Assembly (NCBI RefSeq): GCF_028745735.1
Contig: NZ_JAQZSM010000030.1
Location: forward strand, 1 to 36,472
Direction: 5' to 3'
Length of the DNA stretch: 36,472 nucleotides
DNA from: Roseinatronobacter alkalisoli
Lineage (GTDB): Bacteria > Pseudomonadota > Alphaproteobacteria > Rhodobacterales > Rhodobacteraceae
The translations under genes and the position numbers were made by a program. Within the stretch, counting starts at the first letter, position 1, and each line of letters begins with the position of its first letter. The notes beneath the pieces are model-generated. The model did not search any database and was not told the origin of the DNA. It was given only the letters and a program-made list of their open reading frames with translations. This document shows, one piece after another, positions 11,850-35,162 of this stretch.

Positions 11850-11924
11850 TGGAGCGGGCGATGAGATTCGAACTCACGACCCTAACCTTGGCAAGGTTAT
11901 GCTCTACCCCTGAGCTACGCCCGC
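11850..11924 (-). tRNA. tRNA-Gly (anticodon GCC)
   Basis: The minus strand folds into a full cloverleaf. The acceptor stem is GCGGGCG/CGCCCGC, the D arm is GCTC...GAGC, and the anticodon stem TAACC/GGTTA holds the loop TTGCCAA (anticodon GCC). The T arm is GTGAG-TTCGAAT-CTCAT, with discriminator U and an encoded CCA. It decodes GGC and GGU glycine codons. A terminator with a UUCG loop follows. Confidence 0.98.
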
Positions 11925-30518: not shown

Positions 30519-32468
30519 CTAAACATCCAACTCCTCCACGAACCGCGCATTTTCGCTGATATACTGAAAGCGCAATTCCGGTTTCTTGCCCATCAGCCGT
30601 TCAACCAGATCCGATGTTTCGCCCGGTAAATCATCATCCACATTCACCCGGATAAGGCGCCGCGAGGCCGGGTCCATGGTGGTTTCCTTCAGATCCTTGG
30701 CGTCCATCTCGCCCAGACCCTTGAAGCGCGACACGTCCACCTTGGCCTTGCCGCCAAACCCCTCGGCCATCAGCCGGTCCTTTTCGGCCTGATCCAGCGC
30801 ATAGACGCGCTTGGCCCCTTGCGTCAGGCGAAACAGCGGCGGGCAGGCCAGGTACAGATGGCCTGCGTCGATCATGGGCCGCATCTGGGTGAAGAAAAAC
30901 GTCATCAGCAGTGCCGCAATATGCGCGCCATCCACATCCGCATCGGTCATGATGATGATTTTGTCATAGCGCAGGTCATCGAGGCGGAATTTACTGCCCA
31001 TTCCCACGCCCATGGCCTGGCACAGATCGTTGATTTCGGCATTCGTGCCCAGCTTGTTGCTGGCCGCCCCCAATACGTTCAGGATTTTGCCGCGCAGGGG
31101 CAGGAGCGCCTGTGTCCTGCGGTCGCGCGCCATCTTGGCCGACCCACCCGCGCTGTCGCCTTCGACGATGAATAATTCGGTGCCCGCGCGGTTGGTGGCC
31201 GAACAATCCACCAGTTTGCCGGGCAAGCGCAGCTTCTTGGTGGCGGTCTTGCGGCTGGTTTCCTTTTCCTGCCGCCGCTTCAGGCGTTCTTCGGCGCGCA
31301 GCACAAGGAAATCTAGGATCGCGCCTGCGGCTTTGGGGTCGGCCGCCAGCCAGTTGTCGAAATGGTCGCGCACCGCCCCTTCGACCATGCGCGCGGCTTC
31401 GGTCGTCGCCAGCCGGTCCTTGGTCTGGCCCACGAATTCCGGTTCGCGGATGAAACACGACACCAGCGCGCAGCCGCCTGCGGCCATATCCTCTCGGGTG
31501 ATCTGGGCGGCTTTCTTGTTATTGGCCAGTTCGCCATAAGCGCGGATACCCTTCAGCACCGCTGCCCAGAACCCCTGTTCATGCGTGCCGCCTTCGGGGG
31601 TGGGTACAGTGTTACAGTAGCTTTGCACGAATCCGTCGCGCACAGGTGTCCAGTTAATTGCCCATTCCACCGAACCGGGCTGGTTGAATTTTTCCTGAAA
31701 GCTGACCTTGCCCGCAAAGGGTTTGTCTGAATAGGTGACATTGCCGGTCAGTTGTTCATTCAGGTAATCCGCCAGCCCGCCGGGGAAATGGAATGTCGCT
31801 TCCATCGGGGTGTCGCCATCGGGGATGGCGGATTTCCAGCGGATCTCCACGCCCGAAAACAGATAGGCCTTGGACCGCACCATCTTCAGCATACGTGCCG
31901 GGCGGAACCGGAGCGTGCCGAAGATTTCGGCATCCGGGTGGAAGGTAACGGTGGTTCCGCGCCGATTGGGGGCGGGGCCGACCTTGGCAACAGGGCCACG
32001 CGGAATGCCGCGCGAGAATTCCTGCGCGTAAAGTTCCCGGTTGCGTGCCACTTCCACGCGCATGTGATCCGACAGCGCGTTCACCACGGACGCGCCCACC
32101 CCGTGCAACCCGCCGGATGTCTGATAGGCCTTGCCGGAAAACTTTCCGCCTGCGTGCAATGTACACAGGATCACTTCCAATGCGGATTTGCCCGGAAATT
32201 TGGGATGTGGGTCAATGGGAATGCCGCGGCCATTGTCGCGGATGGTCACGCTGAAATCGGCATGCAATTCCACTTCGATGCGGTTGGCATGCCCTGCAAC
32301 CGCTTCGTCCATAGAATTGTCCAGCACTTCGGCCACAAGGTGATGCAGCGCGCGTTCATCCGTGCCGCCGATATACATGCCGGGGCGTTTGCGGACAGGT
32401 TCCAACCCTTCCAGCACTTCAATTGACGAAGCATCATAAGTTTCGGAATTCTGCAAAAGGTCACTCAT
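30519..32468 (-). CDS. parE: DNA topoisomerase IV subunit B
   Basis: ParE (649 aa) is the ATPase subunit of topoisomerase IV, which decatenates daughter chromosomes. The GHKL ATP-binding domain shows VLDNSMDEAVAGHA, IRDNGRGIPIDPHP and SGGLHGVGASVVNALS. The TOPRIM domain has LFIVEGDSAGGSAKMARDR and IIIMTDADVDGAHIA, and the C-terminus has SRFKGLGEMDAKDLKETTMD. The short N-terminus and missing GyrB-type insert favour ParE over GyrB. The start at 32468 gives MSDLLQNSETYDASSIEVLE. It is divergent from the ilv operon; the 365-bp gap contains the ilv leader. Confidence 0.95.
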   Translation of the reverse strand: MSDLLQNSETYDASSIEVLEGLEPVRKRPGMYIGGTDERALHHLVAEVLDNSMDEAVAGHANRIEVELHADFSVTIRDNGRGIPIDPHPKFPGKSALEVILCTLHAGGKFSGKAYQTSGGLHGVGASVVNALSDHMRVEVARNRELYAQEFSRGIPRGPVAKVGPAPNRRGTTVTFHPDAEIFGTLRFRPARMLKMVRSKAYLFSGVEIRWKSAIPDGDTPMEATFHFPGGLADYLNEQLTGNVTYSDKPFAGKVSFQEKFNQPGSVEWAINWTPVRDGFVQSYCNTVPTPEGGTHEQGFWAAVLKGIRAYGELANNKKAAQITREDMAAGGCALVSCFIREPEFVGQTKDRLATTEAARMVEGAVRDHFDNWLAADPKAAGAILDFLVLRAEERLKRRQEKETSRKTATKKLRLPGKLVDCSATNRAGTELFIVEGDSAGGSAKMARDRRTQALLPLRGKILNVLGAASNKLGTNAEINDLCQAMGVGMGSKFRLDDLRYDKIIIMTDADVDGAHIAALLMTFFFTQMRPMIDAGHLYLACPPLFRLTQGAKRVYALDQAEKDRLMAEGFGGKAKVDVSRFKGLGEMDAKDLKETTMDPASRRLIRVNVDDDLPGETSDLVERLMGKKPELRFQYISENARFVEELDV

Positions 32469-32616
32469 GGGGGTATTGCTCGATTCTCTCGGGGGAATAT
32501 CTACCAGCAATAGACCATTGCGCGGCCAATGACGCAAGACTTGGTGCTGCCCTGGCGGTCGCGCAATAAATGCAAAGTTTTTGGGGCGTTTTGCGCAATG
32601 GCCTGCATTTTCGGCA

Positions 32617-32645
32617 TTGACGTGGGCAAGAGGGGGGCTTAGGTT
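32617..32645 (+). promoter_or_regulatory. ilvBN promoter: Promoter of the ilv leader transcript
   Basis: TTGACG (32617-32622), a 17-bp spacer, and TAGGTT (32640-32645) form a reasonable sigma70-type promoter. The predicted start near 32652 precedes the leader peptide by about 17 nt. Upstream, 32469-32616 is the shared region with parE; no further element was clear there. Confidence 0.5.
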
Positions 32646-32668
32646 CTGGCCACGCTAAAGGGCGGTGA

Positions 32669-32725
32669 ATGGCTATGAAGAATGCACTTGTAATTGTGGT
32701 AGGAAAGATGCGCATGGGCCGGTGA
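32669..32725 (+). CDS. ilv leader peptide (18 aa) for transcription attenuation
   Basis: An AAAGGG ribosome-binding site precedes ATG 32669, which encodes MAMKNALVIVVGKMRMGR and a TGA at 32723. Residues 7-11 are Leu-Val-Ile-Val-Val, all end products of the downstream ilvBN pathway. This is the hallmark of an attenuation leader peptide. A second in-frame ATG at 32675 is less well spaced. The stop lies beyond the left arm of the antiterminator, so ribosome position can choose between the two RNA structures. It is too short to be found by ordinary gene calling. Confidence 0.85.
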   Translation: MAMKNALVIVVGKMRMGR

Positions 32726-32778
32726 CGGATACCCTATCTGACTTCCATGCGCCCCCGAAACACCACGGGGGCTTTTTT
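32710..32778 (+). terminator. ilv attenuator: antiterminator and intrinsic terminator
   Basis: Terminator: GCCCCCG (32751-32757) pairs with CGGGGGC (32766-32772) around an 8-nt loop and is followed by six T. Antiterminator: GCGCATGG (32710-32717, in the leader-peptide codons) pairs with CCATGCGC (32745-32752), which shares bases with the terminator's left arm. A ribosome stalled at the Leu/Val/Ile codons leaves 32710-32717 free to form the antiterminator. A ribosome reaching the stop codon covers it and lets the terminator form. The mechanism is inferred from the geometry. Confidence 0.85.
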
Positions 32779-32833
32779 ATTGCCTGAACGCGCGAATGCG
32801 ACCCTGAATTGATGCCTCGATGGAGCAACACAG

Positions 32834-34588
32834 ATGACACGTCAGATGACCGGAGCCAGAATGGTGGTACAAGCCCTGAAAGATCAGGGGGTGGAAGTGG
32901 TATTCGGCTATCCCGGCGGTGCGGTGCTACCCATCTATGACGAGATTTTTCAGCAAAACGACATCCGCCACATTCTGGTGCGCCACGAACAGGGCGCAAT
33001 CCATGCCGCCGAAGGTTATGCGCGTTCCACCGGCAAGCCCGGCGTGGTTCTGGTGACATCCGGTCCGGGCGCGACCAATGTTGTAACCGGTATTGTCGAT
33101 GCGCTGATGGATTCGATCCCGATTGTTGTCCTGTCGGGGCAGGTGCCGACATTCATGATCGGCTCTGACGCCTTTCAGGAAGGCGACACTGTTGGCATAA
33201 CGCGCCCCTGCACCAAGATGAACTGGCTGGTCAAGGAAACCGACAAGCTGGCGGAAACCATTCATCAGGCGTTTCATGTGGCGACTGCGGGCCGCCCTGG
33301 CCCGGTTCTGGTGGATATCCCCAAGGATGTGCAATTCGCCACCGGCACCTATATTGACAAGCCGAAGGTCAGGACCGACCACTACAAGCCCCGCGTCAAA
33401 GGCGATATCGACGCGATCACCCAGTTGGTGGAACTGATCGAAACTGCGGAAAAGCCGGTATTCTATACCGGCGGCGGTGTCATCAATTCCGGCCCTGCCG
33501 CCAGCCAGCTTTTGCGCGAACTGACCGAAGCGACCGGTTTCCCCGTCACATCAACCCTGATGGGGCTGGGGGCTTATCCGGCATCGGGGAAATCATGGCT
33601 GGGCATGCTGGGCATGCATGGCACATATGAAGCCAACTGGGCGATGCATGATTGCGACCTGATGGTCAATATCGGCGCGCGGTTTGATGACCGTATCACG
33701 GGGCGGCTGAATGCCTTCAGCCCCAATTCGAAGAAGGCGCATATCGATATTGACCCGTCCTCTGTCAACAAAGTGATCACGGTTGATCTGCCGATCATCG
33801 GTGATGTTGGCCATGTATTGGAAGACGTGCTGAAAATCTGGAAATCGCGCGGCCGCAAGGTCAACCGCGAGGCACTGGGGCGCTGGTGGAAACAGATTGA
33901 CGAATGGAAATCGATCAATTGTCTGGCCTATAAACCTTCTGTCGGCAGCATCCGCCCCCAACACGCGATCGCCCGCCTTGAAGCGCTGACCAAGGGCATG
34001 GACCGCTACATCACGACCGAAGTGGGCCAGCACCAGATGTGGGCCGCGCAATATCTGGGGTTCGAGGATCCCAATCGCTGGATGACCTCTGGCGGGCTTG
34101 GCACCATGGGGTATGGCCTGCCTGCCTCCATCGGTGTGCAGATTGCCCATCCCGATGCGCTGGTCATCAATGTCGCGGGAGAGGCATCCTGGCTGATGAA
34201 CATGCAGGAAATGGGCACCGCCATGCAATACCGCGCGCCGGTCAAGCAGTTCATCCTGAACAATGAACGCCTTGGCATGGTGCGCCAGTGGCAGGAACTC
34301 CTGCATGGGGAACGCTATTCCAGTTCATGGTCCGAAGCGCTGCCCGATTTCGTGAAACTGGCCGAGGCATTTGGGTGCAAGGGCATCCGCTGCGACAACG
34401 AGGCCGATCTGGACGACGCCATCCGCGAAATGCTGGCCTATGACGGGCCGGTGATCTTTGATTGTCTGGTGGAAAAGCACGAAAACTGCTTCCCGATGAT
34501 CCCGTCAGGCAATGCCCATAACCAGATGCTGCTGGGCGAGGCAAAAACGCAGGGCGTTATCGGCGCTTCCGGCGCGGTGTTGGTGTAA
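32834..34588 (+). CDS. ilvB: Acetolactate synthase large subunit
   Basis: This 584-residue ThDP enzyme catalyses the first common step of valine, leucine and isoleucine synthesis (pyruvate to acetolactate; 2-ketobutyrate plus pyruvate to acetohydroxybutyrate). The catalytic Glu52 lies in VRHEQGAIHAAEGYA. FAD-binding segments include TSGPGATNVVTGI and GMLGMHGTYEAN. The C-terminal ThDP motif reads NVAGEASWLMNMQEM...FILNNERLGMVRQWQ. The canonical GDG metal motif is GEA here, with Glu450 in place of Asp, which I recall as common in alphaproteobacterial IlvB. It follows the attenuator and precedes ilvN by 10 bp. Confidence 0.97.
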   Translation: MTRQMTGARMVVQALKDQGVEVVFGYPGGAVLPIYDEIFQQNDIRHILVRHEQGAIHAAEGYARSTGKPGVVLVTSGPGATNVVTGIVDALMDSIPIVVLSGQVPTFMIGSDAFQEGDTVGITRPCTKMNWLVKETDKLAETIHQAFHVATAGRPGPVLVDIPKDVQFATGTYIDKPKVRTDHYKPRVKGDIDAITQLVELIETAEKPVFYTGGGVINSGPAASQLLRELTEATGFPVTSTLMGLGAYPASGKSWLGMLGMHGTYEANWAMHDCDLMVNIGARFDDRITGRLNAFSPNSKKAHIDIDPSSVNKVITVDLPIIGDVGHVLEDVLKIWKSRGRKVNREALGRWWKQIDEWKSINCLAYKPSVGSIRPQHAIARLEALTKGMDRYITTEVGQHQMWAAQYLGFEDPNRWMTSGGLGTMGYGLPASIGVQIAHPDALVINVAGEASWLMNMQEMGTAMQYRAPVKQFILNNERLGMVRQWQELLHGERYSSSWSEALPDFVKLAEAFGCKGIRCDNEADLDDAIREMLAYDGPVIFDCLVEKHENCFPMIPSGNAHNQMLLGEAKTQGVIGASGAVLV

Positions 34589-34598
34589 GGAGCAAACA

Positions 34599-35162
34599 AT
34601 GTCCCCCCTGAAAATCAAAAAAGGTTCGTCCAGGCATTCCGCCTATGATCTGCGCGACCCGAATGCGGAACTCATCGAAACCCACACGCTTGCGGTCAGT
34701 GTCGATAATGAATCGGGTGTCCTTGCCCGTGTCATCGGGCTGTTTTCGGCGCGCGGCTATAATATCGACAGCCTGACCGTGGCCGAAGTGGACCACCTTG
34801 GTCACCGCTCGCGCATTACGGTGGTCACCTCCGGCACGCCGCAGGTGATTACCCAGATCAAGGCGCAGCTTGAACGCATGGTGGTCGTCCATGAAGTGCA
34901 TGATCTGACGGTCGAAGGTCCGTCCGTGCAGCGCGAACTGGCGTTGTTCAAGGTGCAGGGCAAGGGCGAACACCGCATCGAAGCATTGCGGCTGGCCGAA
35001 ATTTTCCGCGCCAATGTTGTCGATTCAACGCTGGAAAGTTTCATTTTCGAAATGACTGGCACACCGGAAAAAGTTGACGCTTTCGCCGTGCTGATGCAGC
35101 CCCTTGGCCTTGCAGAAGTCGCGCGCACAGGTGTTGCGGCACTGGCGCGCGGTATCCGCTGA
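34599..35162 (+). CDS. ilvN: Acetolactate synthase small (regulatory) subunit
   Basis: IlvN/IlvH (187 aa) activates the catalytic subunit and confers feedback inhibition by valine. The N-terminal ACT domain (THTLAVSVDNESGVLARVIG, then RGYNIDSLTVAEV) is followed by a C-terminal ALS_ss_C domain (RIEALRLAEIFRANVVDST). The size fits the longer IlvH-type regulators. The start at 34599 is supported by AAGGAG; the apparent upstream extension overlaps ilvB. It is co-transcribed with ilvB under the attenuator. Confidence 0.97.
   Translation: MSPLKIKKGSSRHSAYDLRDPNAELIETHTLAVSVDNESGVLARVIGLFSARGYNIDSLTVAEVDHLGHRSRITVVTSGTPQVITQIKAQLERMVVVHEVHDLTVEGPSVQRELALFKVQGKGEHRIEALRLAEIFRANVVDSTLESFIFEMTGTPEKVDAFAVLMQPLGLAEVARTGVAALARGIR

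Follow-up and report, generated by a model that had tools for sequence, protein, structure and literature searches.

Attenuation of ilvBN has been reported for Caulobacter crescentus (Tarleton, Malakooti and Ely, 1994, as cited in PMC4117421), and, judged by that citing description and not by structure, the Caulobacter system resembles the locus examined here in that both are alphaproteobacterial and both place a leader with Ile/Val codons and a terminator before ilvBN. An alphaproteobacterial ilvB leader peptide of the same sort, in a set that may already include Rhodobacter, is attributed to Vitreschak et al. (2004) and called previously described in the available text of PMC1273637. The cysS leader uORFC-8-2 of Rhodobacterales shares with our locus a leader peptide, two stems and a terminator in the same order, but it has Cys codons, its control codons lie inside the first stem and the downstream gene is cysS, as far as the available text of PMC8632094 describes it.

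Published work already covers ilvB attenuation in alphaproteobacteria, and the leader described here is ordinary in kind and well conserved. An earlier note on this DNA had presented it as unannotated and of a very compact design; the layout is indeed compact, while its kind was already known in alphaproteobacteria. In place of a “possible ilv leader” there is now a defined, testable leader family, present in most of the Rhodobacteraceae genomes searched.

Layout of the ilvBN leader

The window (the whole stretch of Roseinatronobacter alkalisoli DNA analyzed, 36,472 nt) carries the leader in an intergenic region between ilvB and a divergent gene on the minus strand (30519-32537), which we take, from its translation, to encode a topoisomerase/gyrase B-type protein. 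With the ilvB start ATG at 32834, the promoter, leader reading frame, hairpin P1 and terminator all lie upstream of the structural genes (32617-32778). In window coordinates the features are:

32617..32645, plus strand: promoter TTGACG-17-TAGGTT, with TTGACG at 32617-32622, a 17-nt spacer and TAGGTT at 32640-32645
32669-32725, plus strand: longer leader reading frame of 18 aa, via an in-frame ATG at 32669
32675..32725, plus strand: leader peptide reading frame MKNALVIVVGKMRMGR plus stop, 16 aa; the homologues L009 and L010 lack the upstream start
32687..32701, plus strand: control codons CTT GTA ATT GTG GTA (Leu-Val-Ile-Val-Val), with branched-chain and rare-codon enrichment in homologues
32710..32718, plus strand: left arm of P1, GCGCATGGG, within codons M-R-M-G
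32719..32728, plus strand: mini-hairpin P2, CCG[GUGA]CGG, with a GNRA-type loop holding the stop codon
32744..32752, plus strand: right arm of P1, TCCATGCGC, its final 2 nt common to the terminator
32751..32778, plus strand: intrinsic terminator, a 7-bp stem at 32751-32772 followed by T6 at 32773-32778
32834..34588, plus strand: ilvB, acetolactate synthase large subunit (NF006581, 1121.6 bits, cut-off 974)
34599..35162, plus strand: ilvN, acetolactate synthase small subunit, named from translation and position alone

The earlier observation is confirmed in that all of its pieces are in the sequence, including the promoter-like boxes, the five consecutive branched-chain codons and a terminator with six T that has bases 32751-32752 in common with P1. 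P1 consists of eight Watson-Crick pairs and one G.U pair, and its left arm lies in the peptide codons as had been stated for an 8-bp antiterminator, although at equilibrium the terminator can fold next to it. On the length of the peptide we depart from the earlier proposal of 18 residues; 16 are likelier, because the longest frame in the close relatives L009 and L010 begins at the position corresponding to 32675.

The promoter was absent from the list of our mechanical scan, having eight of twelve matches when counted by hand at a threshold of nine, and the mechanical terminator rule was by itself uninformative in the window (one found, 0.7 expected). No Rfam family reached its gathering score in the leader region; the sole gathering-level match of the window is a tRNA gene at 11853-11924 on the minus strand. 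A 21-codon frame (32747-32812) has its ATG within the right arm of P1 and reads through the terminator.

As in ribosome-mediated amino-acid attenuators generally, a short reading frame with a run of codons for the amino acids of the pathway, an intrinsic terminator between this frame and the structural gene, and a cognate biosynthetic gene downstream are all found here. Judging from the sequence, this region is very probably a ribosome-mediated transcription attenuator that controls ilvBN via a branched-chain leader peptide, and the attenuation proposed in the earlier note is strongly supported by Rhodobacteraceae conservation, the rare control codons, the promoter, the terminator and the RNA-level constraint on P1.

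Conservation and control codons

Among 81 ilvB loci for which similarity of ilvB was the only selection criterion (the window and the best 80 of 592 ilvB relatives), the leader precedes ilvB in 76. The five set aside are L058, truncated by a contig end inside the leader, and L014, L028, L039 and L069, which deviate or are without a recognized leader. All 76 homologous leaders have TTGAC upstream; in 70 a TANNNT hexamer follows after 17 nt, and in 33 this hexamer is TAATGT. A peptide end R-[MV]-[GAD]-R occurs in 74 of 80 parsed rows, the typical peptide being M..LVVIVGxxRMGR followed by the stop. Alignment A1 comprises 58 of the 76 leaders, the other 18 having been omitted by eye as near-duplicates, and from these 58 the covariance model R1 was built.

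R1 matches 246 of 295 family genomes (E <= 0.001), among which at least two (G001, G004) carry the leader before an MFS gene only. In the genome of the window R1 matches one place at E < 1, the next match having E 3.3, so that no second copy was seen there. Of the 49 family genomes without an R1 match, 18 were inspected and ilvB is present in all of them; 11 of the 17 readable upstream regions have a branched-chain leader reading frame and a terminator with a different hairpin sequence, five have no leader upstream of ilvB and one more (L267) is doubtful. Beyond the window, 29 of 92 matching ilvB loci were read, and L234, from the same family, was the sole carrier of the leader. None of the 28 loci read from other families carries it, only L250 having a related layout, in a survey whose reading-frame rule may miss some leaders and in which L240 had just 95 nt upstream. 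L250 and L171 (family f70) are ilvB leaders with other peptides (MSKILVPRAPFLGRT and MSLLIVPCAPNEGLA), a long hairpin and the stop codon in its loop.

A chance origin of the leader is ruled out by this conservation. The P1 and terminator segments of the window fold better than shuffled sequences (z -2.8 and z -2.7), but the leader as a whole folds just mildly better than shuffles (z -1.4 and -1.8), so it is conservation that decides.

The control codons were counted in 124 leaders (the 76 and 48 from genome searches), which reduce to 118 unique ones, of which 115 have an Arg-type codon (L155, L161 and L162 were dropped from the 115-leader counts); L091-L123 in these counts were chosen by model score and lean toward the consensus. 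At least four Leu, Ile or Val codons stand among the seven before the codon preceding CGC in 113 of the 118 unique ilvB leaders. The choice among synonyms is strongly shifted, with the Val codon GTA at 59% in leaders vs. 4% in ilvB genes, the Leu codon CTA at 41% vs. 1% and the Ile codon ATT at 46% vs. 12%. Selective-charging theory ties the choice of control codons to sensitivity (available text of PMC1183508). In the present leaders the control codons may be those read by limiting tRNAs.

The stop-codon hairpin and the terminator

G is the last base of the codon preceding CGC in all 58 A1 rows and in 113 of 115 leaders of the wider set, across twelve amino acids, compared with G-ending fractions of 0.38 in ilvB genes and 0.18–0.21 in the two preceding leader codons. 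This conserved wobble G is the outermost base of P1, and its partner is also used by the terminator (pair G36-C78). The Arg codon is CGC in 110/115 leaders vs. 0.63 of Arg codons in ilvB. At P1 pairs 36-43 the changes found in A1 (CGC to CGT, CGC to TGC, and ATG to GTG twice) keep a standard pair every time, and the last three of them replace a residue, R by C or M by V. Because of the wobble G, the pair-preserving changes, the CGC preference and the differing C-termini of diverged leaders, we favor an RNA constraint over a conserved function of the C-terminal peptide. P1 is under selection at the RNA level, and RMGR looks like a product of that constraint with no peptide function, contrary to the earlier suggestion that the basic C-terminus (GKMRMGR) could have a function of its own.

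The comparison across Rhodobacteraceae that the earlier note recommended gave conserved frames, Val/Ile/Leu codons and stems, but covariation of P1 was nearly absent from the main clade (A1), where five of nine pairs are invariant and none has a two-sided change. One to three P1 mismatches occur in the lower-scoring ilvB leaders L058, L151, L152, L155, L157, L159, L160, L162 and L164. The terminator is paired in 100% of cells, with two-sided change at two pairs. The P2 consensus CCG-GURA-CGG adjoins P1, and four A1 cells are changed on both sides of P2 with the pair kept; the window's own P2 is disfavored (probability 0.01), its MFE taking another inner fold. The stop codon, which is TAA in 85, TGA in 24 and TAG in six of 115 leaders, is enclosed by P1 in the folds of 105/118 main-set and 10/11 diverged leaders.

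Whether P1 and the terminator are mutually exclusive hairpins with about 2 bp in common, as the earlier note had it, can be answered only in part affirmatively. An overlap of two to three bases does exist, and in the main clade it is under selection, as the wobble G (58/58) attests, but there is no thermodynamic exclusion and 11 diverged Rhodobacteraceae leaders, which keep the layout, share no bases in their folds. In the window the MFE fold contains P1 and the terminator together, and the arrangement P1(7)+T(7) at −27.7 kcal/mol has an advantage of 1.5 kcal/mol over P1(9)+T(5) at −26.2 kcal/mol. With assumed ribosome footprints, the base-pair probability of the terminator over 58 leaders has a mean of 0.58 (median 0.76) for a ribosome stalled early, 0.98 for one at the stop codon and 0.99 for one on the last Val codon, a stall that leaves no overlap.

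The gap between P1 and the terminator is 0 nt in 100 of 105 two-hairpin main-set folds (the other five have 1, 2, 4, 7, and 8 nt), and in 10 of the 11 diverged leaders a hairpin encloses the stop codon and stands 0–4 nt from the terminator. Since this spacing persists in diverged relatives whose folds share no bases, abutment is the conserved feature. Two leaders, L250 and the Atu_C8-type L170, have P1 6–7 nt away from the terminator. Under the folding rule no terminator forms in 11 of the 118 main-set leaders; in L016, the one inspected, the cause is that its GGG GGT codons pair with the terminator CCCCC. GGG GGN codons follow the control codons in L016, L019, L026, L030, L031, L032, L038, and L079.

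With branched-chain aminoacyl-tRNAs abundant, a ribosome would translate the Leu/Val/Ile codons up to the stop codon inside P1-P2, and its presence there would open P1, so that the terminator could close and ilvBN would go untranscribed. With Val, Leu or Ile scarce, the ribosome is predicted to stall on the control codons, most of which are rare; P1-P2 would then fold flush with the foot of the terminator and hinder its closure, and RNA polymerase could read into ilvBN. Both the ribosome stall and the sign of the regulation are parts that we infer. Because folding shows no exclusion while the abutment is conserved, we favor a kinetic or steric hindrance by P1, which may take the last 2–3 bp of the terminator or crowd the RNA exit channel, over a competition by equilibrium pairing. 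A stop-codon hairpin that abuts the terminator, with no long shared arms, puts the textbook demand for strong mutual exclusion to the test.

The coexistence of P1 and the terminator in MFE folds, and the absence of any base common to both when diverged and Atu_C8-type members are folded, would also suit a P1-P2 that is no antiterminator at all but a pause or protector hairpin synchronizing ribosome and RNA polymerase, with termination decided elsewhere. We regard this as unlikely, given that the overlap pair G36-C78 is selected in the main clade, that an abutment of 0–4 nt is retained where bases are unshared, and that the L016 leader pairs with its terminator arm.

Two other explanations would assign the conservation to a product of the leader. 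The leader RNA left by termination, some 125 nt long for a presumed start near 32653, or the peptide might act in trans, as is reported for the leader RNA and peptide rnTrpL/peTrpL of Sinorhizobium in the available text of PMC10117765 and PMC7298713, and this would explain why P1 is more frozen than pairing needs, to judge by the CGC preference given above, and would fit the cataloguing of its relative Atu_C8 as a small RNA by Rfam; that both P1 and peptide have changed in diverged leaders makes it quite improbable in our estimation. The conserved C-terminus (RMGR, RRMG) might instead act as an arrest motif of the nascent chain and detect a compound that targets the ribosome, ilvB being a secondary user. 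Similar peptide ends do precede a Bcr/CflA-type efflux gene, and the leaders of that gene show little rare-codon bias (Val GTA 0.22 vs. 0.06, Leu CTA 0/19), but the rare-codon bias of the ilvB leaders points to tRNA charging, and both arginine and methionine give way to other residues at positions that keep their RNA pairing, so that we give an arrest motif very little credence.

Leaders before efflux genes and Rfam Atu_C8

A search with R1 over 385 class genomes gave 11 matches outside the family at E <= 1e-4 (L124-L134), all directly before a Bcr/CflA-type MFS gene as judged from the translated downstream frames; 14 class matches at E 5e-4 to 0.01 (L135-L148) stand outside these 11. One such MFS protein matches TIGR00710 at 217 bits (cut-off 200.9). 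Within the family, five further R1 matches (L158, L163, L166, L167, L168) precede an MFS gene, and for L169, the second R1 match of G126, neither ilvB nor an MFS gene was found nearby at E 1e-5. With the window leader as query, Roseobacter denitrificans plasmid pTB1 was matched (E 5e-5) before an MFS gene, and leader and MFS gene also occur together on Phaeobacter piscinae pP14_b, on a Leisingera caerulea plasmid and on a Burkholderia cenocepacia replicon; the first three of these replicons are typed as conjugative. No leader was found at four of eight plasmid MFS loci (L287, L296, L297, L299) or in 20 inspected MFS upstream stretches, the latter including that of a 44% identical MFS gene of the window's own genome (G000:C54:117368-118528, L223).

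Leaders directly before a Bcr/CflA-type MFS gene: L124-L134, L158, L163, L166-L168, L283, L285, L286, L298; many alphaproteobacteria, three conjugative plasmids, one Burkholderia
Atu_C8 copies or homologues, branched-chain peptide leaders before acetolactate synthase or an MFS gene: L170, L206-L210, L281, L282, L291, L284, L288-L290, L292-L295

In the MFS leaders 85% of P1 cells are paired, and two P1 pairs have two-sided changes; of 500 shuffles, 2 attained a covariation score for the whole structure as high as theirs, in an alignment fitted to the model. The MFS leaders (n = 22, some starts uncertain) are Val-dominated, with 83 Val, 19 Leu and 16 Ile codons, and their rare-codon use is mild (GTA 22% vs. 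6%). Since they are Val-dominated and only mildly biased, they may respond to a different signal than the ilvB leaders, and the link to the pump raises the concrete question of which signal the pump leader senses.

A relaxed Rfam scan brought out a second connection, in that two ilvB leaders, that of the window included, match RF02502 (Atu_C8) end to end at 30 and 28 bits, the window leader (L089) falling short of the gathering cut-off of 50 bits at 27.6 bits. Atu_C8 has similar P1 arms (GCGCAUGGG/CCCAUGCGC-like), and its consensus line contains, by our own reading and outside Rfam's definition, a frame MIILVVGPRMGRAV plus stop with branched-chain codons and RMG; it differs in a longer P2 and in a P1 that does not touch the terminator. 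In one order Atu_C8 scored above its cut-off six times, in each case ahead of the MFS gene. Compared with named plasmid records, the Atu_C8 consensus matches 15 Rhizobiaceae/Phyllobacterium replicons, a sixteenth match, in Paracoccus, covering 20%. Eleven of the 15 were opened, gene identity in unannotated records being taken from tblastn; acetolactate synthase lies downstream in three (two Sinorhizobium, one Shinella) and an MFS gene in eight (seven Rhizobium, one Phyllobacterium), and on S. meliloti Ak57 pSymB the downstream gene is annotated as acetolactate synthase, with ilvN. No link of Atu_C8 to ilvB or an efflux gene was found in the main text of open-licence papers, including the available text of PMC3738593, PMC2873474, PMC2245857, and PMC2881028. 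These contexts suggest that Atu_C8, a “Rhizobiales sRNA” in Rfam, is a leader of the same kind as the ilvB leader, which would give a function to an Rfam family of small RNAs and connect an efflux pump with an attenuator of biosynthesis.

As a leader marker, the free-standing P1 pattern GCGCATGG-N15..45-CCATGCGC was rejected, being unspecific (present in 53 of 289 class genomes, with leaders recognized in G000, G210, G055, G294, and G400), and for this reason only model or Rfam matches with context were used.

Leader type tracks lineage more than the downstream gene, as Rhizobium MFS leaders have a mean identity of 78% to Rhizobiaceae ilvB leaders and 52–53% to Rhodobacteraceae-type MFS leaders. 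The contrast is weaker on the Rhodobacteraceae side, where the identity of ilvB leaders is 60% with the MFS leaders on roseobacter plasmids, 61% with the MFS leaders of other alphaproteobacteria and 55% with the ilvB leaders of Rhizobiaceae. The tree of the leaders is weak, with stars on 4 of its 50 inner branches, and the tree of MFS proteins, with L169 left out, has Rhodobacteraceae-type leaders on both sides of its midpoint root. An exchange of leaders between ilvB and MFS genes is likely from these comparisons. As a tentative extension, a branched-chain-starvation attenuator may have been recruited more than once for a Bcr/CflA-type pump that would be induced when charged Val-tRNA is short, with Atu_C8 as its Rhizobiales form; the leaders that follow lineage and the leader-pump unit on conjugative plasmids and in Burkholderia would be in keeping with this. 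Such a pump would be induced by compounds that block branched-chain synthesis or the cognate synthetases, and would sense the damage, not the drug.
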